Both the position numbers and the translations under genes were made by a program. A DNA stretch of 64,000 nucleotides from Trissonchulus latispiculum (lineage: Eukaryota > Nematoda > Enoplea > Enoplida > Ironidae), in the NCBI GenBank assembly GCA_030248195.1, contig JASAND010030300.1:38656-102655 (forward strand), written 5' to 3'. Of this stretch, positions 17,481 to 56,904 are shown one piece after another (the first letter of the stretch is position 1; every line of letters starts with the position of its first letter). Under the pieces are notes generated by a model. The model was not told the origin of the DNA. It worked only from the letters and a program-made list of their open reading frames with translations, and ran no database searches.

Positions 17481-17740
17481 TTTCTGTCTGATCGAAACTA
17501 ATCCGCTAGTTTTAAATCAGACACTGTGTTTATGTTAGACTGAATTGAACATGACCACATGTGGTCTAAAACTTTATAAATCGAGAATAAGAAAGACTAA
17601 CTTATATGGCGGAATGTTCAGTCAGATTTCTAACAAATCCCAATAACTTAGCTATTCGTTGAAAGTATCATAAAACACCAAATTGCCAATATCAGAAATT
17701 GCGTACAAACTCATTACATCAGTCACATCAAACGAATCAA

Positions 17741-29794: not shown

Positions 29795-32700
29795 ATGATC
29801 CCTGAGTTAGTGATCTTAATCCTCCTAATCCATTTAATCCGCTCCCTATCCACAATGGACGTGGAACCCCCTGTTTCCTGCCATGGTCCCGTGCCCAAAA
29901 TTTCGGAAGGGGAATACTTCTATCATGACAATGAGACCTATCAACTTCGAGTGACCACGAATCTGAAGCTAACCCTAGACTTGCATCACAAGTCCTGTTT
30001 TCAGATTGAGATCGAAAATGTGTCAAACGATTCCATGTCAGAGCTTCGAGTAGGTTTCTGGTCTGGTGAATTTCGTCGAATTTCATTCCATTTTGAATGC
30101 TGAATTAATATATACATAAGTACATAAATATATACATGATGACGCTTTAGCATCAATAGTTTGCTACTGCAAAGGAAATACAAGGAAATACCGAATTTGC
30201 GAGCCACGGATACGGAACTTGTCAACCTTTCCCGCCTTTTGCTTAAGTCTGGTTTCAAGGGATAGTCGCTATTCACTTTTTGACTGTTTTTGTCCACCAG
30301 TGTCACGGTGTAATTTTCCTCCTTGAAAATTTTCCCCCGGAAAAATTACACCGGTGTGGATTTTCCAGGGGGGATGGACATTTTGCACCAATGCAAGAAA
30401 TAATGCAGATTTCAGTTTAAAATTGAGCTTGGCTCCGCCGAAGCAACTAATTATGCTTTGAATATGGAATATGATTAGTGTAATCCGTCAAAAGAATTAC
30501 TCATTATAATAGTTCGACTGAGCTACAAAAATAAATCGAAACATAAACAAAATTTCTTGCAAAATAAGAAAATTTGTACGATTAATTAGAATCGTTTATT
30601 GTATTCAACTGCTTATTTTGTATGTGGTGAACCTTAATATGTAATAAAACTTCTTAAATAAATGATAACTTCTAATCTTTCTTAGGCTTCTAATATTTTA
30701 TGTTTTCATTTCTAGTAAAAATTAATAAATTAAAATATTGGAGAATTTATCTCCGAGCTCAAATCTTCAAGTAGGGCAAAGGTATAAAATCAATTTAATT
30801 AAATTTATTTTCAAGTTTATTTTAGAAATTTTATTGAACTAAATTAAAATTAAAATTTCCAGTTTGAAAATTGCTGCTTATGATTAATATCTATGAAATA
30901 AACAAAAATAAGTTTTAATTTGACCTTATAACTTTTCCTGCTTAACGGCTTTGGCTCGGAGATAACAGTTTCCAAATATGCATATATTTTTGCTTAGAAA
31001 TAAAATCATAAAATATTAGTGCATAAGAAATGCTAGAGTTGGCTTTTATCATAAAATTTTTCTTTATTAATTTTTATCTATTTTATCTTTTATCTATTTT
31101 TATATTAAGTTTTATCAAATGCGAAATAAGCAGTAGAATATAACAATAATTTTAATTAATCCTTCAAAATTTATGGTTTTTAAAGAATTTTTATTCATTA
31201 TATATTTCAATGAAGTTGATTTTGTATATGGGTTATAATGAGTAATTATTTTGGCATTTCAGCGTTTCAGGCTAATCACATTCCACCACCAAAACGTAAT
31301 TAGTTGCTATAGTTATGAGCAAAACTCAAGTCATAAACTGAAATCTGCATTATTTCTGGCGTTGGTGCAAAATTTCCCCCCGGAAATTTCACACCGGCGT
31401 AATTTTTCTGGGGGGAAAATCCACAACGGTGTAGTTTTTCCGGGGGGAATTTTACACCGGGGGAAAAACTGCACCGTGACACACCAGCACTTGGTTGAAG
31501 TGCTACTGTATCTGCGATGTGCTAATTAATTGTGTGATTTCTGTAGGAGACATCACCACATCACTTCAGGGCAAGCTCCGTGTGTGTTCCTACTTGCGTG
31601 AGCAAAGCAACTCGTTATTTAAATTGGTTTATAATGTTTTAAGCTAGGAATTTAGTTTTAGGAATTTACAGTAACATAAGTTTTGTAAGTTGTTTTAAAA
31701 TTCTGTATTTTATCATAAAATCATAATTAGGCCTACATTATTGTCGTTATTTTAGAGTGTCTCATCCCTATTCTATGCCGTACAGTACGTGTCTTTTCTA
31801 CAGCACTATCCGGTTAGAACCAGTTACCAATTCGGTATTCCCGAATTTCAGTCCTACTGTCAATGCGACTGCCCCCAGGCCGATACCTTCTGTACGTACA
31901 GTTTTGATCGCAAGTATTGCTCAAAGGGCGAAGTCTGTATCTCGAAGTATTATGGCAATCAAAATAGTCACGGATGTCAGCATCAGGGCCCGGCCAGCCT
32001 TTGCTGTGAAATTACGGTAAAACCATTCGAAAATCGCCGATTTACTGCGATTAGTGTAGATTTTCCCACACCTGATGTCATATTGAAAATAGAAATCTTT
32101 GCCCTCTACAACAACAAATGGGCCCCCTTTCGTGAGTATACCAGACACATTCTGCCCTACAAAGGAAACTACCTACATTTGAACGGATACGATAATTTTG
32201 TCGAGATGTACATTTTTGCCGAAGCTAAGCAGGCCCGTTTCGGACTTGTGGCCAACAGCGAGAAATACTACTACTACGAAAATACTCGGGCTAACTTTGT
32301 GCTCCTGACAGAACCTAAGATTAACAGTCTTCATGAGCACGATGTTCACAAATATGGCTGGCTGCGTTACCAGAACGGAGCCTGGGTGGTTCCGGAGCCC
32401 CTGGTCACTCTTTACCAGATTCATCAACCGATCGTGACAGACTGCCGTCGGCAGACCTATCACGATCAGTATGATGTAAATCCGAAGGTCAAGGTGATTC
32501 GAAATGTGACCGGGGCCATCAGTGGTCAGCCTTTTCTTGGGTTTAATCTGACCAGTCATCACCAGGAGTATATCAGCGAGGCTGACCTGGCGCAGCCTGG
32601 TGATAAGGAAAATCCGACAGGTACTGGCGGTCGACGCTTGTCACGGTCTTAGCTATTATGTACTCTTGATAACTGACAATCCATCAAATTTCATAGTTAC

Positions 32701-35330
32701 ATTGAAGATAATTTTATTAATTTTGTCCGTAATAATGAAACAAAACGAACTTTTAAAAAAGATTTTGATTAAACCGTTTGCTAAGTTTGCAGTATTGGCT
32801 TTGATCGTAGGAAACTGAAGTTAGGTCCCCAGCGAAAGTTCTGAAAAAATGAGGTCTAGACTTTCTATTGTATTTGTGGTAACAAAACGGATAGACGAAT
32901 AATTCAATTCTTGCTGCAGTCCATTTGGAATTTATTTTAATCCAAATCTCACAAAGTTAAAGTAATATGACAAATACAAGGCATTATGGATTCCTTGGCG
33001 CCCATTGGCTTTGACCTTTACGGACTATAAGGTGCCACCTTTGGTGACTTTGGTGCCACCTTTTCATTATTTCTCTACGACTTATTTTTATTTGAATTCT
33101 ATTTCATACCTAATTCGTAACTTTGAGTTACAGATTTGGTAGATCAGTGCTTAATTTCATCTATTGATTTTAGGTGTTGTCATCGTTCACAAGGCAGTAA
33201 GCGCCCCCATTCTACAGCTGGACATGTCACTACATCAGAAGATGAGCATCATCTCACACCTGCACGCCAGCTATCTGGAAACCTTTCTGGCCAAAGTGTG
33301 TCTGGATCGCCACTCCATGCGATTCCTAAACATCACCCTGATTCACTCCTACGGGGAATTTCTCATTGAAGTTTTCCAGGTACACACTAAATACTGGAGG
33401 TCCCTTTGACTTTAACTCAAATGGCCAACCGCTCGCTTGTGACGCTTTTGTACCCTTGAAACCAGGACCTAGAGAGAGGCGGGGAGAGATATGTTCAGCT
33501 TTTCATTCAGGATTGAAATTAAAGAATTAACCGAGGATCGAACCACGGTTCTTTCGCGCTGCAGTTAGACGTGCTTACCACTACAGCACCGTCCCATCAG
33601 CTGAACTCCCATATCAGGCTTATCAATCTTTTCTATGCCTACTTTCCTTACATACTGAAACTGGTACAAGCGTTTTGAGCATATCTCGGTGGTATGCAAC
33701 TTTCATGGCAAAAGTCGCAGTGATAAACACAAGTCTTTACATCTTGTAATTTCGATCTCGGCCATACTAAACCTGATGCTATTTACATTTCTTGCATCAA
33801 GAGTTTATAAATACCTTATATTTCCGATTCTTTATTATTATTATTTTTATAAACTCTTACTTACGAAAACCATTTTACAGCGAACATTAAAATGCATTTA
33901 GACGTTGAATGAAAGCTTTGCACATTGGGTTGGAATTTCGCTTTCAGCTCATTGCCACTGATGAAGCCCCCGTGGTACAGTTGGTAGAGCGTCTGTACAT
34001 TAAGCAGGAGACCGAGGGTTCGAGTCCCACCACAAGTCCAGATTTTATTATCTTTTAATCAGCACATTATTGTGAACGATTTGAAGTCAGAGATGAAAGA
34101 TATGAAGAAAAGCGTCCTGGGGCCAATTGCATAAAAATCTGCGGATCTACTAGTGCGGATTTCAAGCGTTGCATAAAACTTTTCTAGCGACTAGACGAAA
34201 TTAGCTAAGCAAGTTGCTAGGCTCGACGAACTCGCAATACTAGTGCGAGTAGTAGCATTGCGAGTGATGAAACGCGGTGGATTAATCATAAATCTTCAAA
34301 AAATCACAGCGGGTTCAAATCGCAACCAAATTACAAAATTTTTTCACAGTCGGTTGCAAATAGATAACTCAACGTATTCAGAAAATTTCATCGAAGAATA
34401 TTGGAATATCGAAAATTTATTAAATGTTTACTGGCAATCGTCTAGTGAAATTTGACTAGACGATTTTACTAGCACTAGTAGATTCCTAGCCTGCAACTAG
34501 TAGATTTTATGCAACTCAAATAGCTGCGAGTGCCAGTAGCAGGTACATAGCAACTAGTAGGTCGCTGGACTCGCACTAGTATTGCTAGTTGCGAGTTCCG
34601 CACTAGACGTTTATGCAACATTAGCAATGCGGAATCCGCAAACCAGCATCCACTAGTTGCGGATTCCGCAACTAGTAGATTTTTATGCAATTGGCCCCAG
34701 AAATCGACCATTGGATTACAAGTAAAACGCGCCACACCCCCGAACATTGAGACTAGTTTATTACACTGATTTCAACCGTTCTGGCTTGCTGATGCTTCAC
34801 ATTAGGTTGGTCTGTTTTTGCAGGACGCTGCGGGGAACAGCATGGACCTGATGCTGTCCATCGTAACGACGCTTCCCTTCTCCAGCAATCACAACGAGAT
34901 TCTCCCGCTCCCCAGTCACGTGGCCTCGGCTCGCTACGTCTGCGTCGGCGAGGCGGCCAATGCCAAGAGTAGGAAACTCTGCAAATGGGCCCACTTCCAC
35001 AAGGAGCCCATTCTGACCTATGAACTGAAAAACACGTTCATGGAAACGACCGGGGACTGCCCGGGCTGCAATGTGGAGACGGAAACCAGTTTCTGGAGTA
35101 ATCTAAATCCGAGGAATTGGTTGAACGGGATAAATTCGGTATCGGAAGCGGTGGCGGTTTTTCTGGAAACGGTTTTCTATCTGGCACTGGCGATTGGAGC
35201 GGTCGTTTTGGTTCGAAAGATCCTCTGGCCGCTACTTAGCTGGGCGCTCTGCTCTACGGCACCGGCCTGTCCGCCTGCTGTTCCGGCCGGGCCGAAGTAT
35301 GAAAAGTGTGGAAAGTGTGATGAAGTTTAG
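29795..35330 (+). CDS. EFF-1/AFF-1-like somatic cell-cell fusogen, four exons
   Basis: Exons 29795-30049, 31756-32620, 33174-33379 and 34824-35330 join in phase (0, 1, 0) to give 610 residues. Residues 1-20 are a hydrophobic signal peptide. The ectodomain has a Cys-rich block (CQCDCP at 120-125, then C131, C140, C146, C159, CC168-169) and several N-glycosylation sites. One membrane segment at about 549-573 is followed by RK and a short Cys/Pro-rich cytoplasmic tail. Nematode EFF-1 and AFF-1 are type I glycoproteins of about 600 residues that fuse epidermal and other somatic cells. Length, topology, the early CxCxC block and Cys-rich ectodomain fit that family, but I recognise it by overall resemblance only; another Cys-rich type I receptor is possible. 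All four exons are open. The start was chosen because it gives the signal peptide. The coding sequence is noticeably more GC-rich than its surroundings. Confidence 0.65.
30301..31481. mobile_element. 1.18-kb DNA transposon in fusogen intron 1
   Basis: Inverted repeats of roughly 120 bp begin TGTCACGGTG and end CACCGTGACA. The inner parts, GAAATAATGCAGATTTCAG and CTGAAATCTGCATTATTTC, also mirror each other. An exact 6-bp target duplication CACCAG lies at 30295-30300 and 31482-31487. The AT-rich centre has no transposase frame, so it is non-autonomous. It makes up about 70 percent of intron 1. Confidence 0.85.
32631..32669. mobile_element. Solo tip of a CAAGAGTACAT MITE beside a splice donor
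   Basis: ACGCTTGTCACGGTCTTAGC followed by TATTATGTACTCTTG matches the right terminus of the MITE family. No left arm is present. It starts about 10 bp after the exon 2 donor (GT at 32621-32622) of the fusogen gene, so the first bases of intron 2 come from a truncated transposon. Confidence 0.7.
33525..33630 (-). repeat. tRNA-derived SINE head in fusogen intron 3
   Basis: The minus strand carries GTGCTGTAGTGGTAAGCACG (A box), loop CTGCAGC, and CGTGGTTCGATCCTCGG (B box). The phrase CTGAACTCCCATATCAGGCTT next to it recurs at 14350. Confidence 0.6.
33964..34040 (+). repeat. tRNA-like SINE head
   Basis: Plus-strand GTGGTACAGTTGGTAGAGCG (A box) and GAGGGTTCGAGTCCCACC (B box) have tRNA-like spacing. 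The 5' GCCCCCGTGG could partly pair with CCAC downstream, but the anticodon loop lacks the conserved T at position 33, so it is called a SINE or tRNA pseudogene. Confidence 0.55.
34070..34790 (-). repeat. SINE copy split by a MITE
   Basis: The left flank GATTTGAAGTCAGAGATGAAAG..GAAGAAAAGCGTC matches the SINE tail at 48425-48465. The right flank, GCGCCACACCCCCGAACATTGAGAC..TTATT, matches the sequence beyond the tRNA-like head at 48522-48550. The two halves are separated by the MITE at 34117-34700, so a once-continuous SINE was interrupted. Confidence 0.6.
34117..34700. mobile_element. 584-bp MITE with CTGGGGCCAATTGCAT ends
   Basis: The left tip CTGGGGCCAATTGCATAAAA and right tip TTTTATGCAATTGGCCCCAG are perfect inverted repeats. 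The subterminal regions are rich in CTAGTAG/CTACTAG and GCGGATTCCGC. The same tips, slightly diverged, bound 46646-52552. It is non-coding and is inserted in a SINE inside fusogen intron 3. Confidence 0.88.
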
Positions 35331-35727: not shown

Positions 35728-38700
35728 ATGTCAGTCGTGCTGAACGTTGACTCCGAAAATGAGACGTAAGTCTTTTTTGTTGAATTTTTAAAAATCTGTA
35801 ATTTTTAAAAAGTCACACATAAAAACAGAGCTAAGTATATATTAGGTATAGAAGTGATTAACTGCAGAATACACTAAATATTTAGGAAAAACTATGCTCT
35901 ACAAAATTCTAAGTCCTATTATACCGTAGCGCTTTCCCCCTTTTTGTCCGTAAACCAAGGGGGGCCCCAGGGTCTGGTACCGAGTACCATTAAAACTCGT
36001 GAGGGGGGAGTAGGGGAAGTTCAGTATCAATTGGGATTGAAAGTAAAGTATTGGCCCCGCCGGAGATCAAACCACGACCCTTCTGATCTTCAGTCAGACA
36101 TGCTTACCACTACACCACTGGTTCCGAAAGATTAATTATCTTCGCACACTTAACAAGCGATTTATCCGGCTTCTAATTAGTTTTGTACAGTTCTTTGAAA
36201 GCATCGATTTAAGCATGACATAGTAACAAATATAAAAAACTACAGATAGAGATTGGATATTAACATTAGAATTTTACTAACCCGAAATCATTATTAAAAT
36301 TAATTTAAAATTAAATTAATATAATTAATTTATAATCTGAAATTTATTAAAACAGCACTTTTTGCAGCACGGACGCTGACTATCCCCCGATCTTCATTCG
36401 ACGCGCCGCCTCTCGGGCCAGTTCCAAATACGGGAATGTCAGTGTGGCCGGATTTTCGCGCCAAATTCGGTTACGAAATTGGTGGGACGAATTCTGTGCC
36501 ACAACTTCCATGGAAGGTTTCACCTACCTGTTGCCGCAGCAAAAACCATTATTTCGAAGGTACCAATAAAAACAGCTAAAATTAGGATTAAGAAAAATCT
36601 AAAGTTATTACTGAAATGTTATCCTAATTTAGTAACACAATTACCCCAACCTAATCTTGAACAAGGTTCAGTTTACAATTTGTACAGTTTTGTTTAAAAT
36701 TTCTGTGCAACTGTTATGGCAATTCCAGAAACTAAGAGTACTCTTCGAAAAAATCTACATTGAAGTATAGGTTCTTTGCACTGGGAACACTAAAACTGCC
36801 TGTCTACAAGCAAAACACTTGAGCTAAGCAGGAAACGTCTTTTGTATTCACTTTTTGTATTTAATTACTTTATTGTATATTCTATTAGTCCACATTCCAT
36901 ATTAAAACACTTTCTACAAACAATTATTAGTGTTTTACACTATCACTATCCTGCAAGAAAATAAACTTCAATGACAGTCATGCACTGCCGAATGCCCGAA
37001 TATTTCGGAAGAACATTTGACTTGTAGGATTGCCTGGTACATCGTGATGGTATTGATGATGATAATGACGGGGATTCATTTTGCGATGCAAGTCCACCAG
37101 TACGCCATGAACCCGTTGAGCACTGACATCCAAAGGGAGGTCAAAACGTCACTACCCTTTCCAACCGTTGCCATCTGCAACAAGATGCCCTTCATGTGAG
37201 CAAGACATCGTAACTACTGACGATTTGATACTGACTATACAGAGAGTACCACTAAGCATTCTCTCAATGCTCATGCTCTGTGCGCTAACGGCTTAACACG
37301 CAAACTAGACTCATCAGTTCAAAGAAATTCGCGCGCTATGCTTGTGTTCTGAAGCTCGACACGAAACGGGTACAAAATTCGTGAGCTTGTGTGCTTGCGT
37401 GGGCACTGCAGCTACCGAGCTTTGCCAAGAGTGTAGAATAGGCTTTAGATCTATCATAGATTTCACCCTTTGTGTAGGGCATTTCGCAAGCTGATCTACT
37501 AGGAAGTGCTGAGTATCTCACTCTTCCTGTTACAGACTCTTGGTGACACGAATATGTTAAATACGCGCTATTGCTGAGTATGTTTCTAATCTTCGACTTA
37601 CTTTCTTTTGTACTCTTGAGTAGAAATCTATTATTCGGCCACTAACGTGGTGATCTCTTTTGGAGACATCAACTTTGAACCATTATTTCTGTTTCGTTGC
37701 TTGAAGCTAGAAGCCATATGATAGCGTTTAATGGCGGAGTTTCAATTGTTCAAATTAAAAAAACTCTTTTTATTTCTTGTTGGCACTTTAGGTCAACAAG
37801 ACTAAGACCTGTAGGTTTAATGCATCAAATTATTGGTGATCTGTTTGAAACGCCGAACATCAATCGAACTGCTGTTGATAGATGGAAACCGGAACTTTCA
37901 TCGATTCGTGATTATCGGAATTTTATGGCCGAATCGTCACAGCCGTTAGACAAGATGATACTAGCGTACGTAAAACAATTTAAATTAAATCTTAAATTAA
38001 AATTAGAACTAGGCACAAAATATTTAAAATTAGAACTATAGTAAGACCAAAAAATGTGTGTACAAACTTCGACCGTTTATACCAGATTAACCTCTGGAGT
38101 AAACCCCAACAATGTATATATTTCTAGAATCCTCCGGAACTCAAGATTTTGAAAATCCGAAAAAATCCGGAGTTTCGAGTTTTATTCACTGAAAATCTAA
38201 AATTTTTAGTTTTTCATCCAATTTTTATTGCAATCAAAAATTTTGTTTTCAGGATCGAATAGACCGAGTCCCGCTGCATAGTTTTGCTCTCAGAAATTTT
38301 TCTCGAAAATGCACCCAATCTCCGGAATTCTGGGTTTTCAAAATTTCCGGATTTTAAAAATTTTCTCCAATACCCACAAGATGGGCATCATTCGAAAGCT
38401 CTTAGCGAGCTGAACAACTTTTGTAATAGAATGAACTCTTGAAAATGTACACAATTCCCTGAATTCGAGAAAACCGGATTTTCCGAATTTTAAAAATTTT
38501 CTCCAATTCTCCAATACCCCACAGCACAATATGGGTATCATTCGAAAGCTCTTGATGAGCTGAACAAATCTTGTAATAGAACCAATGTCTGAAAATGCAC
38601 CCAGTTCACGAAATTCACGAATTCCGGATTTCACTCTAGCTTGGAAGGTATTAGCGAATTCCGAGAACTGGGCTCATTTCTGCGAGTTAGTTCTATTACA

Positions 38701-41700
38701 AGATTTGTTCAGCTCGCCAAGAGCTTTCGAATGATGCCCATCTTGTGGGTATTGGAGAAAATTTTTAAAATCCGGAAAATTGGAAAACCCAGAATTCCGG
38801 AAATTGGGTGCATTTTCGTGAAAAACTTCTGAGAGCAAAAATATGCATTCGGGACCAGCTGTATTCGATCCAGAAAACAAAATTTTGATTGTGATAAAAA
38901 TTTGACGAAAAACTAAAAAATTTAGATTTTTCGTGAATGAAATTCGGAATTCCGGATTTTCCCGAATTTTCGAAATCTCTGGTCCCTGAGGATTCTAAAA
39001 ATATATATGTAGTAGACAGATAGCGAAGTTAGACACTTCTAGAAGTGTTTAGTAATTTTAGACACTTCGCAAAGTGCCTAGAAGCATTGCGAAAATTTTC
39101 TCAGAGTGACGCTTTTGTGCAATGTGTCTAGACACTTCGCTAAGTGTCTAACCTTCACTAGACACATGCAGAAAATTTCATTTGTCATGAACTCCAATCA
39201 ATTTATTTGTTGACACAAATATTATGATTCAACGTTCGAAAATTTGAAATATTTAATTTTTACCTATTTTACTGGATACTTATACTTACATTTCGTCTGC
39301 AGTCTACTGCAACAAAGTCAAAACAACAAGATTAAATTAATTAAATTAGCAATTAAGTGTCCCACAATCACTGGAAAAATCGGTCGTATTTTTGCAAAAA
39401 CTACATTTTCAATCATTACAGACACAGAAATAAAGTCAAAAGTTGAAGAAACTAGGCGAAATTCAGGTTGCGCTTAAATTTCTCTACTTCGAAAAGCGAT
39501 TTCAAAATAATTAAAAACTAAACCATGCCTCTAGAAAATTTGCTTCAGTTAATCAGTTTGCAGAAAATCTGAAAAATTTGACACTTTCTAAAATGCATTA
39601 AAACAATTTTAGAAAACCTCAAATAGTTTCATTGCATTGTTTTGACTTTATTACAATAGACTGTAGACGAAAATGATGTAAGTATAAGTGTCCAGTAAAA
39701 TGTATAAAAACTAAATATATCAAATTTCCGAACGTTGAATCATAATATTTGTGTCAACAAATAAATTGATTGGAGTTCATGACAAATGAAATTTTCTGCA
39801 TGTGTCTAGTGAAGGTTAGACACTTAGCGAAGTGTCTAGACACATTGCACAAAAGCGTCACTCTGAGAAAATTTTCGCAATGTGTCTAGGCACTTTGCGA
39901 AGTGTCTAAAATTACTAGACTCTTCTAGAAGTGTCTAACTTCGCTATCTGTCTACCACATATACATTGTTGGGGTTTACTCCGAAGGTTAATTTGTTATA
40001 AACGGTCGAAGTTTGTACACACATTCTTTGGTCGTACTATAGAATTTAAATTGGAATTTAAAACCATGTAGGAGTCTTATAAAAATGAGAGTCTATCAAG
40101 TTAGTTACTCCCAATAATCCTGTCGATTTCTTAATATGTAATGGTTGTTTTAAAAGTAATTTGAAAATTTAAAGCTTCAATTTTGAATTTGCGTTTTCAG
40201 AATTTTTTACTTTCATAGGATGGAATTTTTTGCACCAAAATAGGATGTATATTAGGAAACTTGAAATGGGCTTGCAATTCAGATCTAGATTTTCTAACAA
40301 TTTCTGATCTCGTAGTTTGCATCATAGAGTAAAGCAGTAAAGATGGTTGCTACCAGTATGCTTATTTCAATCTATAACCAATAAAAATATATTCTTTCTA
40401 GTTGCAACTGGAGCCAATTTGACTGTAGACCCGATTTCAAGCAGACCGTCGACGCCAGAAGAAAAGTCTGCGCAGAATTCAACAGTAACGCAACCTTGAG
40501 TCAAACAGGTATATAGGAGTTTTCGTGGTAGTAGGTTTTAAAAGTAGCTGATCACGTAATCGTTGAAAAGCAAACAAACTATTTTGGTCTGGCTTTACGC
40601 ACGCCTGCTCGGTGATTGGATCCCCGCCCTGGACACTTTACTTCACATCTTTCAATCCTGATTTCAACCTTTCACATTTGCGACCGTGCCGTGTCCTTAC
40701 CGCTCTGAGGAGATGAAGTCGTTTAAAATACCTGGGACTGGTGGAATTTCAGGTCCTTGAGATAATTGGTTTGGTTTATAATATGGTGGTCCTCGTGGTA
40801 CTAAGGGTCAATATAATGGTTAATGGTTCAACCCATCACATTCAAGTAATAAGTGTCCGAACAGTAACCTGTATTGTCGGACTACACGCTGGAGGCCATA
40901 CATGTACTTGCGGATGGCGGGTTGGGGGGGGGTTCACCCCACCGGACCTGGAGCTTACCTCCCCCCCCCAGATTCCGCTTTTGTTTTTTTTCGGTTTTGA
41001 AGGCTTTTCCGCTTTTGGGACAAAAACTCAAAAATTCTGTTTTCCGGCGGCCTCACCACCCCAGAAATTCCCCTCCTGCACATGTCTGCTGCACACCAAT
41101 AATTGAATTACACCAGAAATTGAAATAGCTAAACAAAAAATTATCAATCGTTTACAGGGTTTCACAAATTCCTAATGGTGAATCATGAGTCAACTGGCAG
41201 ACAGGAGCCAATCTTCTGAATATCTAAATAATTTGCAGAGAGTAGAAATGGGTTGCTAAGGAAAAATGTGATTTTGACCAAAACGTTTTAGTTATATGTT
41301 CTGTTATGTTTATATGTTTTTAGTTTTTCATTTTATATATTTTTCAGTTTTTCAGTTCTCCTGAATCATTTTTTGATTGCATTTGACAGAAGCTTTATTT
41401 CACCACGATTACTGTTGGTTAAAGCCAAAGATATTTGATTTTAACAAATTATTTTATTTTTAGATTCAGATGAGGGTATATTTTTGTTGTTGGATGCAGC
41501 CACGTACGAAGCCGTGCCTGGTCCCTACCTGTCGTATGGCTTTGATGTAAGCTTCTTTGGTTGTTGTGAGTTTACACTGGAATAATGGATGTTCCGTTGG
41601 TGTAGTAATCAGCACATGTTACTGCAGATCAGTAGGGTTGTGGTTGGATCTTTACTCTAGGGGTTGGGCAAATTCCTTTAATTTAAATCCTGACTGATGC

Positions 41701-44700
41701 AAACGTTTTCTGTCTTTCGCTAGAGACAATAATATCTGTGCTTTCTCCGGAGTCTTCACCTGGACAAACCAAACTCTGTTGAAGTATCAGTAACTTGAAC
41801 CTTTAATTTGAAAAAAACCAAAGCGAAAGTTTGATTTGAAACTTCATTCTTTGCTAATGTCTAAATTTCTGTCCCCCAAACCAGTTGGAATTGCTTTGGT
41901 ACATGCATGAGTTTTTCAGATATCGTTGTTTGGTGAAAATCGTCAGTTGCTGGATCTAGACGAAATCACTGTAACGCCCGGCGACTTTGCAACAATTCGT
42001 CTAAACATGTACAAGGTACAGTATCATTAACATAAATTAACCCAATGTTTTAGCAGCTAAGTTTTTAATTAATCTAGTAAAAGTAGTTGTTAGTGTAGCT
42101 ACTGAACGAAGTAGCTACTTAACGTATACCAAGAGTTTATTTTAGTTTTACATCAATAATTTTTTATATCATTATGTTGCGTAGAACTAGATCTTTTTAA
42201 CGATATAAAAATTATATATATAGCTCGGTTTAAGGTGGTGATTCCTTTTGGGCACATATTGTTGGTTGACGGCTCAAACCAAGATGAAATTTGATGAAAC
42301 TTTCCAAAATAAGTTCTTTTAGCATTCAACACCCTCCGCGCAATCCCGCTTCAAAACTTCGACGTCTCCGATCAGGGTGGTTTTTGCCAGTTTTTGACAG
42401 TTAGGCAGTTGCTACACAGCTGTGACTATACTCATTAGAAAGATCTTGTTGAGCTCTACATTTTTGCTTTTTAAAGTACCTTTCTAGCTTTTCGCTATCG
42501 TGAGATATAGTAGATTTTATTATTTTGGCGTTGAAAACTTGTCATTTTTGAAGAAATCAAATAATCCGCCATTTCTTGAGCTACGTAAGTCGTAAAACTA
42601 AACTATGGGTGTCAATTTGAAGGTCTCGTCGGGACCGATTATTCGTGACATTATAATCATCTAACTGCTACCCCGTACGCTGCTATCATAGAAATTGTAG
42701 TTTTTGCAAAAACATGACCAAATTTTTTCCAGCGATTGTGGAGCATTTACTATGCAAGCTAGATGGTTGCCACTTACTGGACGAGTTTTACACTAAAATA
42801 CCCAGGGACCCTTTTTTAGTTGTCCCGATTGCTGCTTTCTAGCTAAAGTGGTCGCTTGCCAAAGTTGGGAAAAGTAGGCAAAATCCAAGTTGCGCATACG
42901 TTTTAGCTAATTTCTTTATAACGAAGAGCGGTTTCATAATAACTAAAAAAGGGTCCCCAGCTATTTGATAGTGGAATCTAATGATGTGGTCGATGCCTCA
43001 CGAAAAAATTTACTTTAGTCTGCAAAAAATCTGGAAAATTAAATTACTTCGAAAATACAGTAAAATAATTTTCGAGAACTAAAGTTAGTTTCGCTGTATT
43101 CATTAGAAAGAGCAAATGTTAAGCTGCATTTTGATATAAAAATGGCTTCTTAACTCCAAGTAATGGTTGAGTACTAATGGTTCAAAGTTGATGTCTCCAA
43201 AAGGAATCACCACCTTAAGCAATCCCTCATAAATTCAGCAACAACGTATGGCATTTCTAAGAAATTAATATGAAATACCCAGAATTTTCGTGGCAAGGAT
43301 GCTTTATTGCCGGTTTTGTAATAGATTACTTAGACCGAACTATATACTTCTTATATCGTTAAAAAGATCTCGTTCTACGCAACATAATGATATAAAAATT
43401 ATTGCTGTACACTTTTCCTAGCTCAAGTTATAGTATCTAATTTGTCGAAAACGCCCGTTTTTAAAAATGTCAGCGTTGTATGTTTACACGCTGAGAAGCC
43501 CCCCCCCCGAGATTTTGGCCTTAATGTGTCGAGCATCTCGCAAGCTTATTCTATTAGGAAGGGCTGAGTGTCTTACTCTTGGTATTATAAACTCTTGCAT
43601 ATACCAAGAGTACAGAATACATAAGAGTATGACAGCTGGCATATCCTATGTATTATCAGCTTGACACATTCTCTGAACGCTAACGGCTGACCTTCCGCCC
43701 CCGCAAATTGGACCCCAGTGACCCGCCCGCAAACTGGTACCCAGTCGAAACGGGGGTACGCTTACTCGGTCTATGCTTGTGTGTTAAAGCTCGACAACAC
43801 AAGCACTACGTGCGCGAGTTTTGTGTCTGTTTCGAGCTTTAGAACATATGCACAACAGCAAAATGGTTTTGTTAAGTTAAGGGTTTAATTTTCGGGGGGG
43901 GGGGGGGTTCAGCCGTTGCCGTTAGCGTGCAAAGGATGTGACACGCTTACAATATATAGAGTGTGACAGCTGTCATAGTCTAATGTAATATGTACTCTTG
44001 CATAAACTGTTGCTTATTAATTAATAATTAATTTTCATGTATATATTTAGCAAAAGCTGATGGATGGGAAAAATTGCAAACGAAAGTTGCTTAAAAGTGG
44101 CCGCCAATATTCACGCAGTCGTTGCGTAGCTGAGGCCTTGGAATCCCTGGTAGAAAGAAAGTGCAATTGTGCCCTTGGCAATACAAATCCGCTTATCAGC
44201 TCACAAAGTAAAACGAGTGTAATTAATTTTTCTTTTTTAAATTGTAAGCATAAATTTTTCACATTTCACATTGGCTGAAACTGGTATTGTGTATGTGGTA
44301 ACAATTACGCGTTGTGAGTAATCGACGAAAAGCAAGAATATCACAGTTGAAGTTTAATTAGCGGTGAACCTACACACACCTACAAATCATAGCATGACGT
44401 GGGAGAATTGGGGGGGGGAGTGCAGACCCGCCAGCATACATGGGCAATGAATGAAGGTCTGGCCTATACAGCTTTGGAAAAATTCTGCGCGGGGGTCCAC
44501 GAGCTTCGGGGGGGTCTATGAGCTTCGAGGGGGGGGGGTCTGATAGCTATTTTTACTACCTGCTGCAAAAATTACAAAGTTAGGTTCATTGGATTTGAGA
44601 TTTGTGAAAGCTCCGCCAGGTTCAGTTTCTTCATTTGAACAAATATTTGACTGAACCTTTTTAGGTTAACAGAATACAGAAAACCTTTTAGTTGCACTTA

Positions 44701-50700: not shown

Positions 50701-53700
50701 AATTTAAACAGCAAAGCAAATCTTGTGGTCGTGTGTGACGAGATATAGAAAACGGCGTTTTACTGTACAGTTGATCAGAATCTCAATTTGTGTAAAATCA
50801 GTATTTCTCGTTCTTTTTGAAACTACTTTATCTGAAGAGACATTCAACAAGTGAACTCTTACTATGTACTTGTTGTTTATTTTGAGTGTAGAATTAGCTG
50901 TGTATCTTTCGATTTGGCAAAAACTGAAATCCAGTCCCACAGCGACTGGAGGAGAGGACCTGGAATGCAAATCTCATGTCACTCAGGATATGGTCATTTT
51001 TATCAAAACCAGCTAAGTTAAATGATGTGTTGTTTGGTGCACTTGGAAAGGTTAGATTGTAAAATAGAGTTGGTACGCACTGGCACATAGCAAAAAGCAT
51101 GGGGGGTGAAAAAGGTCCCCCTGTGTCTATTGCTACGTTCCAGCTAGATTAAGCTCGATCACGCTCTATATTTTTGTGCCAGTCTGCTGATGCTTTGAGA
51201 GCGGAAGCAGCATTTAAAACTGGCAAACTTTCAGAGTTTTCCTGTACATATGTCCATGTCGTGATTTCTGTATTTAGGTGCTTTTACAGACCGCATTTTC
51301 CTACTTTTCTATACTAGAGCTCGCCAACCCCCTTCCCTCTTCTTCTTCTGCAGCCTCTTTTGTCCATAAGCCTAACGAGCAGGCACACGTAGCTTTCAGC
51401 CATCTTAGTTGCTATTACCAAGCGGGGGGCAGTAGTTATCGGGTGAACGATTGCTACTGCCTTGGGCGTGACTGAAATAACCGTATGGTAGTTCTGCTTG
51501 GGGATCATGTTTCTGTCCATGATCTTCGTCTCTCCGCCTCTTGACTGCGGTCTGCGGAGAGCACCACTTACGGGTCACGTTGTGTGCCTATTCAGTGGTC
51601 GGGCCCTAGCCAAAAAAAAAAAATAAAACGAGTAATGTTCAACCTAATTGCAATGCTACCAAGTATCTGTTGCTATCTATCTATTGCCATCAAACAAATT
51701 ACAAAAAACCTGAGAACTTGAAATCCCGAGAATCTTCTAGAGAACTGCGAATTCGAATTCCGTGTCGTTAACATTAGTCGTCCACATGATCCGTTTAATT
51801 TTAATGAATAGCGTTTGCAATTGTCGGAGGGAGGGGGATCGACAAATATACCCCTCGCGTTTGGTTAGGGGTAACCAAACTGGTAGGGAGAGGAAGTAGC
51901 CAACTGAGGTCCTCGCTTGGAGGAGGGGGATCGCTAAAACATATCTCGTTTGTGGGGACGAGAAGTGTTGGCAGAAAGTAGGTAGAAGAAGTAGGCAGTG
52001 GACCACAGCAATAAAGTTTAAGAATAGCATCAGAATAGCAATTCAAACATTTATAGGACTTAGCCTTCTGCTTTTCCACAGCCAGTCTCATACTTTTTGG
52101 TGCAGTCCATGGCTGATTCTGACTGGCTGTTGACAACCTACCTCAAATGGGGGCCCTTTTTACACTCTTATAATTGTATTCAGAAAAATTATGGAATACT
52201 CATGCCAGTGCGCAATGATGTGCGCGTGATAAAATTAAATGTCAGCAGCGAGATAATGCTCCTTTTGGGAGCCGACTTGTTTTGAAATGTTCTGAACATT
52301 TTGTGAAAATTTCAATAAATTTCATGCAACGGTGAAAGAGTTATGATTTTTTGCAGAATTATGGCAAATTTTCCTTCTACTCGCACTTGCGTTGCAAGCG
52401 GGTCAAGTTCCGCTACTTACTTTCTGTGGGCTAATTTCCGCCAGTTTGCAGAAAATTTTATGCAACACTTGTAATCCGCACTTACGTTTCAAGTGCGAGT
52501 ACTAGCACACTCGCACTTGCAAACCCGCAACTTTTTATGAAATAGGCCCCTGGTTCATCTGTTATATTCCAGAAGCGCTATCTTTATACACCTAGAATTT
52601 CATTTACTGTCAAGCATTTGTTCACAAAAAATGAGCACAATTGAAAATTTCCGTATTTTCAAATTCCGACACTTTCCTAAATATCTGCTCTGCACCACTA
52701 GTAAACTGGAATGTCTCTGCATTAAAAGGCTTATTTTTGGTTATGCAGCAGCGAAGCATTTTGTTAATACAAGCACAGATTAGTGAATTGAAAAATTAGG
52801 AAAAAGCAAACCTTTCGTCGATTTTAAGAACTGACTATTTAGTTGTTACTGATTTCAGGAAATTGCTTGACACTTGATAAAAATATCGTGATTTTGAGAT
52901 TTAGCTTCCACACACATATGACCTCTTAGCGATAATGAACTGTGGTTATTAGATCTAACGTTTGAGCTTTCAGGAGTACGCAATGCTAGAGCAGTGAGTC
53001 AAACTTAGCATTCCTGAAACATCCGCAAACAATTAACGTAACGTAGACAAACTGAAAGTTTGCCTGACACCAAAACGTCTTCGTAAACTCACCGGTCAAC
53101 AGTCACTGAAAGTTGAAGTATTCCTGAACTGTGTATTTTCCATTGGTGACTCGACTTAGAGATTTATTGTAAAATATTTTCTTTAACAATTGAACCTGAG
53201 CTTACCAAATGATATCTAGTCGATGTTAACAATTAATGATAACACTAAAATGTTAATCCTGTTAATTTACTGTTATTGTTGTAGGATCCGTGTGCAGTTT
53301 GTATGATTATTGCCACTGCGTTTCAAGATACGTAGGTAAATATTTCATGATCTCGTCAAAAGTACAGTTTTCGTTTGTTACCCGAAAAGAGTAATCTGCA
53401 AGCAGTTCATTAAAAACCATAAATTTTATTAGACTGTAAATATGAAAATATGGATATAAAAGAAAGAAGAAATACGAACATGAAAATATGACTTTAATAT
53501 GACTGAAAACTTAACACTTAATGTTGCAGTTTTACAACAAGACGGTTGTCATTTAGGGACAAATTTCAATGGGTCAGAGTGCCCTGTTGACTGCGAAATG
53601 ACCAGTTACAGTCCTTCTCTTACACTGACTAAAATGGAATGGGAACGCTTTGAAGTCTTCTTGAATCCCAAAATTCCTGCAATGCATCAGTTGAACTTGC

Positions 53701-56700
53701 GAGCCCGTGAAATGTCCAGACGATATCTACGGAAACAAGCGCTAAAAACAAATAATTTGTATAAACTGTTGACAATATCATTGACACAGCTTTTGAAAAG
53801 TATGAAAGCTTTGGAGTCTCCTGATTGCAAGCTGCAAGGCTATCTTTTGCCCGAGAATGTTGATAACACGATCAACGCAATCTCTCATTTAAATAGCAAA
53901 CTACAAAAGCGATATGCTCTGTATGATTTGATTCTACTAACCATAGCGGAGTCTTTGTCTGTAGTTTCTGAAAATTTAAACAACACTACGTTCAGATACA
54001 CACTTTCCAGCAAAGTATTCGATTTTGACAATTCAGCTTCAGGGTATGGCAATGCTTCTTCAGCTGGTAACGTGAACATCAGTTCATACTTCGGTATACT
54101 CGGCAACTATGTGGGACCTTTGCTGAAATGGACCAAACTCGACCTTGTCTTTACCAGAGAATTATCAGCAGCATTTTCTGTTTGTTATGATGACAATTTG
54201 TGTCCATATTCTTCCTCTGAGCTGCATATGCTAAGACTAACTCTGGATATTTGGCGCAACATTTCTATCTTTTACACTCTTGGCAGTGAACATAAGCCCG
54301 GTTGCCTAAACAACGTATCACATGCTCCGTATTGGAACAACCAAGTTGCCAAACCAAAATTGCCAAGTGTTGCGTTTCGCAACTTGCTCAGCGTTTTCAG
54401 TTCTCCAGAAAGTCTGCATGCAGTGTATCTTTTGATGATGTACCATGGTCAAGAAGCAGAGGAGAAGCATGGCGCAGTACCTACGTTTAGCCACATGCTA
54501 AATGCAATTAAGCAGTCTTGCTGTCAACTTTTAGACAGCAATAGCACAAACTGTAGTCCTGATAAAGGAGTTGTATTGGGCCTGTTGATAGATAGCGTTC
54601 GTATTCTAACCAGAAATATCGAAAACTGTCGAAATCTGCTAAAGATTGGAATATCACATCTAAATCATATAATCAACTACCATGAAACGCAAGTTACTCC
54701 ACAGCTTAACAAATGGAATGGCGTCGTCGAAATGTTCCGAGAAAAGTCTAACAGCATAAAGTTGGCACTGGATGAAATGCCAAGTCCTACAGATTTAGAT
54801 GCTTTGAACGAAAGTATTCACAGGTTCGGACTGTATGACAAAGGCGACATTACTTTTCATGAGTATTCAAATCATGTTTTCAGCACAAGTTATTCCAAGG
54901 CAGACGGAATATTAGTAAGCCATACGACTTTGCTTTCAAACGATTGCAATGTAAAGTTCTCTGTGAAATGTATTCAATAAAACTAGAACTACCTAGGTTT
55001 ACAGCATATTTCACAAACAGAAATCTAATAAAAATCTAGGTACTAGGAAAAAAGGAAAACACACCTTTCTTCCAATTTAAACAAACCGCTATTTTCATTC
55101 AAACGAAATGTTAGAAGTTTGAAACCAATCACCATCGAAACACAACTCACCACTTGAGTACTTGACTCCCACGAGGTGGTCGAAAGCACGGTACCGGTAG
55201 CACTAGACGTAATGAGAACCGGACAATGATTGTCCTCTCGTTTTAAACCGTTTGAATTTACATGCTTAATCTTAATACACCATCTTAATAATCGCTAACT
55301 GTCAATTCGATCTGTGCCCGGCGAAAAAACAAGATTTTGATTTGGATCAAAATTCAGAAAAATGTTTCTACCTTATTCCTCTAATCTAAATTTGTTAATC
55401 AATCTTAGTTTCGTTTGTTCTTTCATAAGTCTACGTTCAGCGAAACTAATTTTGTGCTTAAAAGATCCCAGTTTAGTGCTACCTATATGTATATAGTTGA
55501 AGGTTGTTTCAGTTTGCTGTAAAGATTGCAAATGCCAAGCGCTCATCAATAAAGGTGTTATCTCGATGGTTAATTGAAACTTTGAACGACTGGAAAAGTA
55601 ACCAATTCTTGGACTTGCATAGTAATGATACAACGGGTACTGTCTTCAAAAGCCTCATTCGCAGGATCCTAGGCAATAATATATCTTTCACCGATCTGTT
55701 AAAAAAAGAGAATTGCCTGCAGCAATTATCACTCGTGGCCAGCCCTATCGATACTTCCAACTTTTCAAAGGCACTTGCTCATTTTCTGAAAGACCTAAAG
55801 CTGTATAAAGATAGTTTGGTAGTAAACGACGATTTCTTCAGGTAACCTCGTCTGTTTAAATTTTGTAAAATTGTAAAAATTAAATTGTAAAATTTTTGGA
55901 ATTGTCATAACAAAAATAAAGAATTAGCACAACTCATTTGCTGTACTGAATATCAGATAGTCAGAATCAAACTGTATCTCAGACTGCAAACACAACATAG
56001 TGGATTCTTTATTGTAGTCTTCCTTATTCTATTTCATATGCGAATGTGATAGGTACTCGAGAACTAAACAAGGTTTATAAATCGTTTAAGTAGAGTTACT
56101 AACTGATTAAAATCAAGTCAATTTGATCTACACCTGGACAAGGGAGGAGTGGACAGGTCCGCCTTCTGCCCTGTCGTACAATACGCGCTATTTTGGGCTA
56201 TGATTTACACAAGGGTTTGAAACATGGCGTCAAAACAGATTTAAAAACAAGTTTTAAGCTCCGAGTACAATTTTCATGGTGTTCTTTAAGATGTACCAAA
56301 ACTCTAAGCCCACCATGTCCGGGAATGCTTTGAATATGTAGTAAAGTTTATAATTGTTCTTACGTCTTTTTGACTACATGTGTGTTACTGTTTCTAGGCG
56401 GAACTTCATTTTGTTGAAGATCTACTTTAGTTCTTTTCTGACTTCAACAACCACTCAAGAACAAGCATATACTGCTTGGAGCTTGCTTTGTACGTACAAA
56501 TGATTTACTGATAACTGAAACAATACAAGCATATAAACTGAACGCTTAGTAGAGCTTCGCTTTACAAACTTTGATATACAAGATATGATATTTAAAAGGA
56601 TCAGATTCAACAAAGATTTGCTTTCCACTGCACTGTATTTTTAGCTGATCTTGGAGGGATTCTCAGCCTATATATCAGCTGCACCTTTGTTACATTGTTT

Positions 56701-56904
56701 GAATCGTTTGACATATGCTTGCGACGATTTTTGAGCTACTGGCGAAGGCGAAAAGCCAAACTTGCTTTGAAGACAGCCGTATCCATACCAAATTTAAAGG
56801 TGGAACCAGCATCTACAAAGACAATAACTCTTCAGCAACCGGCTAATGAAATTAACATGAAGACATCAAGCAGATCTGCTATGCAGGCACTGAATAAATT
56901 GTAG
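35728..56904 (+). CDS. DEG/ENaC cation channel subunit with giant ectodomain insertion
   Basis: Thirteen exons join with matching phases and GT-AG borders: 35728-35765, 36368-36559, 37028-37195, 37792-37965, 40402-40508, 41464-41546, 41920-42015, 44051-44207, 53285-53335, 53530-54914, 55513-55841, 56398-56489, 56645-56904; 1,043 residues. Landmarks in order: EFCATTSMEG (54-63, the gating HG motif with His replaced by Glu), TM1 about 78-98, FPTVAICN (121-128), CNWSQFDC and CAEFN (192-216), the GxxxxIxL strand, YSRSRC and KCNC (306-326), CSLYDYCHC, CPVDCEMTSY (373-382), NFILLKIYF (929-937), YTAWSLLSDLGG (951-962), TM2 ending FE977, and a basic cytoplasmic tail. Such subunits form trimeric sodium or mixed cation channels for mechano-, acid or peptide sensing. 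From Cys377 to Asn929 there are about 550 residues instead of the usual 40-60. The GxS selectivity filter reads SCT (969-971). The normal family size is 450-750 residues. No stops or frameshifts were found. Confidence 0.88.
36000..36130 (-). repeat. tRNA-derived SINE in DEG/ENaC intron 1
   Basis: The minus strand shows GGTGTAGTGGTAAGCATG (A box), a perfect 5-bp anticodon stem TCTGA/TCAGA around loop CTGAAGA (GAA, phenylalanine-like), and GTGGTTTGATCTCC (B box). The acceptor ends do not pair. The tail GGGATTGAAAGTAAAG resembles the other SINE tails. Confidence 0.65.
37239..37618. mobile_element. Degraded CAAGAGTACAT-family MITE in intron 3
   Basis: AGAGAGTACCACTAAGCATTCTC with CATGCTCTGTGCGCTAACGGC opens it, and TTTGTACTCTTG closes it. 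Internal blocks match other copies: GCTCGACACGAAACGGGTAC as in the 43605 element, and GGAAGTGCTGAGTATCTCACTC as at 43556-43580. The arms no longer pair well and no target duplication is visible. Confidence 0.6.
38036..40042. mobile_element. 2-kb MITE in intron 4, itself carrying a nested MITE
   Basis: The left end CTATAGTAAGACCAAAAAATG and right end CATTCTTTGGTCGTACTATAG are inverted repeats continuing for over 80 bp. TA dinucleotides flank them, consistent with a Tc1/mariner-type TA duplication. The tips are shared with 2555-3898. The left part holds repeated blocks around GAAAGCTCTTAGCGAGCTGAAC in both orientations. The element is interrupted at 39012-39955 by another MITE. Confidence 0.8.
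39012..39955. mobile_element. 944-bp MITE nested inside the 38036-40042 element
   Basis: Inverted repeats of about 240 bp start GTAGACAGATAGCGAAGTTA and end TAACTTCGCTATCTGTCTAC. They are rich in TAGACACTTC.GAAGTGTCTA units that form local hairpins. Arm identity is high, and the host element resumes on both sides. The AT-rich centre carries no supported gene. Confidence 0.85.
40600..40690 (+). repeat. SINE fragment with conserved tail in intron 5
   Basis: A B-box-like GGTGATTGGATCCCCGCCC is followed by TGGACACTTTACTTCACATC and TTTCAATCCTGATTTCAA. It aligns with the reverse complement of 48420-48485. Confidence 0.6.
40691..41463. other. Rest of DEG/ENaC intron 5
   Basis: Between the SINE fragment and exon 6 there is a G-run and C-run pair at about 40924-40969 around CACCCCACCGGACCTGG, probably a decayed G-tract repeat of the kind at 59100-59475. 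The 121- and 84-codon open frames across it are low-complexity readings. Confidence 0.45.
41590..41700 (+). repeat. Degenerate tRNA-like SINE in intron 6
   Basis: GTTGGTGTAGTAATCAGCAC, ACTGCAGATCAGTAGGG and GTGGTTGGATCTTTACTC align with the heads at 36052-36128 and 33525-33597. AATTTAAATCCTGACTGATGC resembles the tail. Confidence 0.5.
42130..43597. mobile_element. CAAGAGTTTAT MITE in intron 7, carrying a nested MITE
   Basis: The left end CAAGAGTTTAT matches the right end ATAAACTCTTG. Subterminal inverted blocks include ATCATTATGTTGCGTAGAAC (left) and GTTCTACGCAACATAATGAT (right). The flanks CGTATAC (42123-42129) and CATATAC (43598-43604) look like a 7-bp target duplication with one mismatch. 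Its middle is occupied by the TTAA-flanked element 42234-43214. Confidence 0.7.
42234..43214. mobile_element. TTAA-flanked MITE nested in the intron 7 element
   Basis: The ends GGTGGTGATTCCTTTTGG and CCAAAAGGAATCACCACC are perfect inverted repeats. TTAA lies directly outside both (42230-42233, 43215-43218), as in piggyBac or Kolobok-type insertions. It is non-coding. Related ends occur at 45067, 46170, 59597, 60367 and 61951. Confidence 0.8.
43605..44000. mobile_element. CAAGAGTACA MITE adjacent to intron 7 MITE
   Basis: It starts CAAGAGTACAGAATACAT and ends TAATATGTACTCTTG. It is flanked by CATATAC (43598-43604) and CATAAAC (44001-44007). The left flank is also the right flank of the 42130-43597 element, so the two elements sit back to back around one 7-bp site. 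It ends 50 bp before exon 8. Confidence 0.85.
44400..44910. repeat. G-tract repeat at the start of intron 8
   Basis: Runs of 9 or more G occur at 44411 and 44528, with repeats of GGGGGTC.A.GAGCTTCG. At 44800-44880 is AAAAGGGTAGACC..AACGCAAAAAGGGTAGAT, which is the reverse complement of the AGGGTCTGCCCTTTTTCC-type phrases at 59345-59430. A dispersed repeat family is likely, with borders uncertain. Confidence 0.5.
45067..46170. mobile_element. TTAA-ended MITE in intron 8
   Basis: TTAAGGTACTGGTATCGCTTTGTG opens it. Inverted GATACCAGCACCTTAA lies at 46058-46072, followed by a second inverted end CGGAACCACAATCTTAA closing at 46170. This suggests one TTAA element joined to or nested in another. 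The internal blocks (CCGGATTGTCTGGATTATTGAG, GAAATCGATGTTCAAAAATTTTTGG) recur at 60367-61951 and inverted at 59597-60293. Confidence 0.7.
47449..47481. repeat. Strong short hairpin
   Basis: CCAATAAAAAGGG and CCCCTTTTTATTGG are complementary around a loop of about 6 bases (ATTTCA). It contains AATAAA and lies within intron 8. Confidence 0.7.
48425..48580 (-). repeat. Best preserved tRNA-derived SINE copy
   Basis: Read on the minus strand: a head with GTGTGGCTCAGTGGTACAGCG (A box) and TGTGGTTCGATGCCC (B box), then GCCCTGGACACTTTTCTTC, ACATCTTTCAATCCTGATTTC and AAACTTTCC. This head-plus-tail order defines the family. The tail recurs at 40630, 27490 and 34075. Confidence 0.7.
48857..49265. repeat. 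GAAACT hexamer repeat region
   Basis: Dozens of GAAACT/CTGAAA units carry the linkers GGTTGTACAGGTTTCAG and GTGAGGAGACCTGAAAC. It is the reverse-orientation relative of 633-790. Confidence 0.8.
49989..52265. other. Unassigned interior of the 5.9-kb composite
   Basis: It begins with a small perfect palindrome, ATCTCGCCTAAAGGCGAGAT (49994-50013). Minus-strand frames at 50704-50970 and 50894-51100 look mildly protein-like (Cys and Asn-x-Thr sites) but sit in different frames and match no family known to me. An A-rich tract lies at 51614-51629. No transposase was recognised. Confidence 0.4.

Follow-up and report, generated by a model that had tools for sequence, protein, structure and literature searches.

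A DEG/ENaC channel gene of the nematode Trissonchulus latispiculum with a predicted insertion of about 500 residues in the knuckle of its ectodomain

Introduction

How force and ligands reach the pore of DEG/ENaC channels is an old open question, and a predicted gene of the nematode Trissonchulus latispiculum raises it in a particular form: can the knuckle of such a channel carry several hundred additional residues, and what would they do there? The gene lies on the forward strand at positions 35728-56904 of a 64,000-nucleotide stretch (assembly GCA_030248195.1, contig JASAND010030300.1, positions 38,656 to 102,655), hereafter the window, to which coordinates refer. A first annotation made from the letters of the window (the sequence-only reading) described a DEG/ENaC member with a large extracellular insertion encoded mainly by one long exon. 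The window is part of one contig (C20544) of an assembly of 733.8 Mb in 21,732 contigs. Here, we report that the gene encodes a predicted DEG/ENaC subunit whose knuckle helix is split by about 500 residues, and we weigh what the insertion may be.

Results

Gene structure and family membership

Rebuilt from splice sites and reading frames, the gene has 13 exons (3,132 bp) encoding 1,043 amino acids, and its sole stop is the last codon; all 12 introns are GT-AG and every phase is consistent. A Pfam scan of the protein (E up to 10) returned only ASC (PF00858), with 168.4 bits against a cut-off of 23.6 (E 3.9e-49). The match falls into two stretches, the better one joining residues 55-409 to positions 1-391 of 455, that is, to most of the profile. 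Two transmembrane helices (TM1 and TM2) enclose a large ectodomain: the hydropathy maximum of the whole protein (1.98, residues 78-96) corresponds to TM1, and the TM2 region, with a peak of 1.48, was also assigned by ASC homology. Both the FPxVxxC block that follows TM1 (PFPTVAICN at residue 120) and the cysteine-rich CPxxC block (CPVDC at 373-377) align with ASIC5 and with a profile of paralogues from the same genome. The best PDB matches were ASIC5 (9mky, E 1e-16), then ASIC1, FMRFamide-gated channels, ASIC2, and others, and in ASIC5 (9mky/9mkz), ASIC1, and ASIC2 the parts follow one another as they do here, from TM1 through the cysteine-rich ectodomain, knuckle, and beta-12 strand to TM2. 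The landmarks are thus in the order and phase that the sequence-only reading had given, including CPVDC and the NFILLKIYF strand at residue 929, and the protein is a predicted trimeric cation channel subunit of the DEG/ENaC family.

Two motifs that are common in the family, but do not define it, are absent. MEG is found in place of the HG that precedes TM1, both here and in a second copy on contig C16523, and the G-x-S filter of TM2 is replaced by SCT. HG was present in all 25 paralogue frames whose match begins at profile position 7 or earlier (that of locus L030 was read by eye), and GxS was kept in every paralogue frame (11) and every database relative (7) with TM2 covered, a count that leaves out two rows with false positions (L030 and P0011). 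The filter of gamma-ENaC is SCS. With these replacements, the pore and N terminus may be unusual, or the subunit may have a modulatory role.

When the assembly was searched with the protein devoid of its insertion, two contigs were found besides the gene itself. One of them (C20052, locus L071, 62000-71900) contains the end of a fusogen gene and channel exons 1-2, the second of which has a gap of one base. The other (C16523) carries exons 1-8 on 15.5 kb and ends in the counterpart of intron 8. Its eight aligned pieces differ by 4-12% in DNA, but exon lengths are identical, there are no gaps, and the splice dinucleotides are kept. Over 338 codons, none of them dropped, the nonsynonymous rate (dN) was 0.0115 and the synonymous rate (dS) 0.166 (dN/dS 0.07). 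This copy supports the gene model as well as purifying selection on the channel half. Gene structure, family, and constraint on exons 1-8 are all shown by the sequence itself.

Position and size of the insertion

The distance from CPVDC to SDLGG is 585 residues (584 by another counting convention), whereas the corresponding distance in ASIC5, which has no insertion (CPVSC to ADLGG, counted on the structure-match alignment), is 70; about 515 residues are therefore extra. The excess is supplied by exons 10 and 11, of 1,385 and 329 bp, against 38-192 bp for the earlier exons, sizes that agree with the sequence-only reading. The PF00858 match on the joined protein also breaks where that reading had placed the break. 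The ASIC5 knuckle residues alkylskk align partly before the insertion (to residue 403) and partly after it (from residue 911), which shows that the knuckle helix is split, and the paralogue profile ends at residue 394 and picks up again at 926; it was built from 22 of 30 frames, the other 8 being duplicated, broken, or incomplete. The insertion had previously been placed after the knuckle helix, for which LRAREMSRRYLRKQA was taken; the break instead falls within the helix, and LRAREMSRRYLRKQA (residues 412-426), which lies beyond the ends of the ASC, ASIC5, and paralogue-profile matches, is most likely part of the insertion. By homology only, the insertion may be located at the rim of the trimer.

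Exon 10 lies within an open frame of 498 amino acids, whereas no frame in 60 simulated sequences of 64 kb exceeded 249 amino acids, and the frame of exon 10 is not due to chance. Exon 11 is supported by its splice sites, its phase, and its last 16-17 residues, which, joined to exon 12, match the knuckle and beta-12 of ASIC5. The two exon lengths are each 2 modulo 3 and their sum is 1 modulo 3. Skipping exon 10, exon 11, or both would thus break the frame, and an in-frame channel keeps the insertion unless cryptic sites are used; a short isoform made by exon skipping was rejected for this reason. Weak internal donors in the phase of exon 12 are found in exon 10 at 53921, 54044, and 54833, and a cryptic short form is possible through them. 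Position and size of the insertion are plain from these alignments, and we consider it highly probable that the architecture, a DEG/ENaC subunit with a knuckle insertion, is correct. The features of the gene are listed in Table 1.

Table 1. Features of the channel gene in the window.
Feature	Position	Strand	Support
Exon 1, start codon, N terminus	35728..35765	+	GT donor and length kept in C16523
Exon 2, cytoplasmic N terminus, EG instead of the HG of relatives	36368..36559	+	Length and splice sites same in C16523
Exon 3, TM1 and PFPTVAICN block	37028..37195	+	Hydropathy maximum at residues 78-96
Exon 4, ectodomain, finger region by homology	37792..37965	+	ASC match; second copy
Exon 5, ectodomain with Cys192/199/214	40402..40508	+	ASC match; second copy
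Exon 6, ectodomain strands by homology	41464..41546	+	ASC match; second copy
Exon 7, ectodomain strands by homology	41920..42015	+	ASC match; second copy
Exon 8, cysteine-rich part, thumb by homology	44051..44207	+	ASC match; second copy
Exon 9, cysteine-rich part	53285..53335	+	Gene model; no second copy found in assembly
Exon 10, CPVDCEMTSY block, first knuckle part, about 410 insertion residues	53530..54914	+	ASC end at 409; 498-amino-acid frame
Insertion part in exon 10, about residues 404-817	53673..54914	+	Left edge uncertain by about 20 residues
Exon 11, insertion 818 to about 909, then second knuckle part 910-926 (from 55789)	55513..55841	+	Phase, AG/GT, ASIC5 match, single copy
Exon 12, beta-12 strand RNFILLKIYF	56398..56489	+	ASIC5 alignment; paralogue profile
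Exon 13, TM2 with SCT for GxS, cytoplasmic tail, stop	56645..56904	+	Gene model, ASC homology
Read-through frame, 21 codons from the exon 10 donor up to a TAA, AATAAA nearby	54915..54980	+	Sequence reading only

Knuckle length in paralogues of the same genome

At least 95 DEG/ENaC matches were found in the genome when 93 of the 2,621 first-look candidates had been scored (the control genome of Thermotoga maritima also gave one), and the family appears from these matches to be greatly expanded, with a predicted large sensory repertoire. Many paralogues are encoded by one long exon, unlike the 13-exon gene, and this exon often ends at an SNLG/ANLG intron that immediately precedes TM2. The paralogues compared (L001-L030, L035, and L072-L074) belong to the same family with 23-34% identity (matches at E < 1e-3, the gene and its copies aside), keep HG and GxS where these are covered, and have a knuckle of variable length.

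The CxxxC-to-xxGG distance was 58-160 residues in the 32 measured of 37 loci. The 37 comprise the first 30 loci, L034 and L035, which were included for a listed open frame or a broken match, and L072-L076, taken for a match break at the knuckle; a distance was obtained for L035, L072-L074, and all of the first 30 but L025 and L027, and none for L034, L075, and L076. Several loci form near-identical pairs, probably alleles, and the counts are thus not independent. One paralogue had 11 database relatives, of which three gave distances of 62, 65, and 66 residues; P0005 (87) had a wrongly set end, and the other seven were left out. The sequence-only reading had contrasted the insertion with 40-60 residues in other members; the size of about 500 residues that it gave for the insertion holds, but the range given for other members was too narrow for this genome. 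The 585 residues of the gene are about 3.7 times the next longest distance (160). The knuckle of a DEG/ENaC channel thus appears from these predicted proteins to accept large insertions.

Nature of the insertion

In residues 430-926, the hydrophobic moment at 100 degrees (z 2.9) exceeded that of all 500 shuffled sequences, whereas the beta-type moment was low (z -1.7). The insertion contains nine cysteines, and 12 N-glycosylation sequons were counted in residues 430-926, where shuffling predicts 6.8 (P 0.027). Self-BLAST returned only the identity line, i.e., no internal repeats. The most hydrophobic 19 residues of the insertion (484-502, window about 53913-53969) reach 1.44, compared to 0.94 in the remaining ectodomain; Asp and Glu inside this segment speak against a membrane helix, and it is probably an amphipathic helix. 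Single-sequence AlphaFold models of the exon 10 and exon 11 parts contained helices only, without strands, at low confidence (predicted local distance difference test, pLDDT, 36.5 and 43.6; predicted template-modelling score, pTM, 0.22 and 0.30, respectively). These data are in line with the largely helical character, the several cysteines, and the many glycosylation sites noted in the sequence-only reading, and they support a putative folding of the insertion as a helical, N-glycosylated extracellular module.

Searches for relatives of the insertion

As the sequence-only reading had stated, no known domain was recognised. Every match of the insertion in Pfam, NCBIfam, and PHROGs had an E of at least 0.084. 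In the PDB, the exon 10 part gave none at E<=1 and exon 11 gave 19 (E 0.059-0.79), which were taken as chance. An uncharacterised protein (5uk3) that matched residues 845-940 at E 0.032 with the whole protein reached no better than E 0.79 when exon 11 was the query and was also dismissed as chance.

The whole protein was further compared with a set of 5.8 billion proteins, where no match at E<=1 was obtained among the 8,000 candidates sharing most words with it, a weak negative since ordinary DEG/ENaC proteins are in the set and yet were missed; exon 10 alone gave none among 6,283 candidates. A control search with an intronless paralogue returned 11 proteins, 8 of them listed under nematode names and the first ten with 34-43% identity, indicating that nematode proteins are in the set and that relatives of such identity can be found. 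No relative of the insertion was detected in GTDB contigs (53 pattern stretches) or viral contigs (one), and the only homologue of exons 10-11 in the own genome is the gene itself, which makes these exons single-copy in the assembly. No homologous insertion in another DEG/ENaC member was thus found in the own genome or in the protein set, the reach of this comparison being poor, and distant relatives would be missed by all these searches. A transposable-element origin was rejected, as the 3,620 bp over exons 9-13 match only themselves and, through intron 10, 11 places of 30-34 bp.

Discussion

A possible tether or ligand-binding arm

In ASIC1, beta-12 links TM2 to the knuckle (PMC2701601), and glycosylated Asn residues in the palm and knuckle of alpha-ENaC are reported to matter for its response to shear force (PMC10178586). 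In delta-ENaC, an Asn added at the matching knuckle site raised the shear response in a matrix-dependent manner; the raised response was abolished by hyaluronidase (double construct: reduced), and DEG/ENaC tethers are thought to be links to the matrix or glycans on the channel (PMC7958617). Taken together with the position of the insertion, the knuckle-beta-12-TM2 link and the ENaC glycan data make a tether or ligand-binding arm the best reading of a glycosylated knuckle module, and we infer such a role for the insertion. In this proposal, a lineage-specific insertion of about 500 residues splits the knuckle helix, would be constitutive as predicted from the exon phases, and would work on the outer face of the channel. 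A pull or a binding event at the knuckle would pass along beta-12 to TM2 and alter gating, either in the subunit alone or as a regulatory subunit of a heterotrimer. The insertion may have originated by growth at a length-variable site or from captured foreign coding sequence that diverged beyond recognition. As a whole, this reading is the one that we favour, tentatively and short of calling it probable. A more far-reaching version, in which the insertion folds on its own as a glycosylated helical receptor wired via beta-12 to TM2, so that the channel has its own sensor arm, appears doubtful; such a layout was not reported for DEG/ENaC channels in the titles and abstract openings of the open literature searched.

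Two known systems are close to this proposal. The EGAS channels of C. elegans (EGF and ASC; PMC10424705) are likewise nematode DEG/ENaC proteins with an additional module, but their module is EGF whereas the Pfam scan here returned ASC only, and membership of this group was rejected because no EGF domain was found at E up to 10. The ENaC subunits with shear-sensing knuckle N-glycans (PMC10178586 and PMC7958617) also have a glycosylated knuckle that is a possible tether; they differ in carrying single sites, compared to a module of 500 residues here. A large knuckle insertion in a DEG/ENaC channel was not met in the titles and abstract openings searched, subscription papers being mostly outside, and in this limited literature and the databases above, the insertion was not encountered as an already described subfamily feature, in keeping with the sequence-only reading.

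Several observations weigh against the tether or ligand-arm reading. The gene model was derived from genomic sequence alone, the 114-amino-acid frame of exon 11 is within chance (10.75 frames of at least 114 amino acids per simulated 64 kb), and codon-usage scoring was uninformative, with exons 10, 11, and even 13 indistinguishable from background. No second copy of exons 9-13 was found in the assembly, and the dN/dS value is thus limited to exons 1-8, without the insertion. The helical signal is weak in exon 11 alone (z 0.97, a value reached by 76 of 500 shuffles), neither single-sequence model can be used for the fold, the sequon excess is modest, and the number of cysteines is odd. The hydropathy of residues 484-502 is well under that of TM1 yet close to that of TM2, so that this segment may be compatible with a membrane helix.

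Alternative explanations

The knuckle might simply tolerate length, the insertion having accumulated without a role of its own. It is a length hot spot in this genome, as measured on predicted proteins: 9 of 28 among the first 30 loci (L007, L010-L013, L015, L017, L018, and L028) have 108-160 residues, a further point against the favoured reading, and at least 108 were found in 3 of 3 of L072-L074, which were picked later for a match break at the knuckle. Such frequent growth argues against regarding the site as special to this gene, and several of the long paralogue knuckles are rich in Ser, Gly, Thr, or Asn. The insertion, however, has a mean local complexity of 3.74 bits, above five of six long paralogue knuckles (3.15-3.68; L007 has 3.79), consists to 37% of V, I, L, M, F, Y, and W and only to 7% of Pro and Gly, and has a significant helical periodicity. 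None of the six paralogue knuckles has one (z -1.9 to 1.2), although they are short (63-115 residues) and this null, which also counts against the favoured reading, is partly a lack of power. The long frame of exon 10 argues for selection, and we consider accumulation without a role rather unlikely, if worth keeping in mind. A whole foreign domain, acquired as a captured gene or exons, would be compatible with a tether or ligand role. The abrupt shift from exons of 38-192 bp to one of 1,385 bp, and a composition and periodicity unlike those of the ASC ectodomain, fit such a fusion; the want of a relative in the own genome, the 5.8-billion protein set, GTDB and viral contigs, Pfam, NCBIfam, PHROGs, and the PDB speaks against it, although distant relatives would be missed by these searches, and we regard it as unlikely.

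The remaining alternatives concern the transcript and the assembly. Exon 10 may also, or mainly, be terminal, as its frame stays open for 21 codons beyond the donor until a TAA at 54978-54980, and AATAAA motifs overlap or trail this codon; the product would have one TM helix and a large helical ectodomain but lack TM2, could act as a decoy or assembly regulator, and the full channel would be minor. Against this, the donor TTA|GTAAGC agrees with the consensus and its phase matches that of exon 11, the ASIC alignment is restored by the end of exon 11 and exon 12, and AATAAA is frequent in AT-rich DNA (the window has 37.7% GC), which leaves an alternative 3' end quite improbable. An artefact, in which exons 10-11 come from another gene or the contig is mis-joined, would be favoured by a model built from genomic sequence and by the presence of exons 9-13 on one contig only, the contig of the second copy stopping in the counterpart of intron 8. 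Since exon 10 reads from the CPVDC block into the insertion in one unbroken frame and the rest of the knuckle is encoded at the end of exon 11, we hold this to be very improbable.

If the tether or ligand-arm reading applies, a subunit whose 500-residue knuckle module is separated from TM2 by a single strand would lend itself well to studies of the responses to touch, shear, and ligands, and the tolerance of the knuckle for large insertions may be useful for engineered sensor channels.

Other features of the window and assembly

Intron 10 of the channel gene contains a short dispersed repeat (window 55400-55433), which was found at 11 further places in the genome. In intron 1, a borderline Rfam match to transfer RNA (tRNA) was observed at 36052-36124 (- strand; 29.4 bits with a cut-off of 29, E 0.047), which was not called by ARAGORN; this stretch is possibly a tRNA-derived repeat. 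The nematode cuticle-collagen N-terminal family had at least 150 matches in the assembly (150 of 285 candidates scored) and none in 14 control genomes; together with the fusogen gene described next, these matches mark the genome as that of a nematode. Directly upstream of the channel gene, an EFF-AFF cell fusogen gene was detected at 31756-35330 (+ strand), in two pieces (Pfam E 2.3e-52 and 1.3e-15). Finally, a single open frame at 16521-17516 (- strand) encodes a seven-transmembrane receptor of 331 amino acids with 7tm_1 and Srsx matches.

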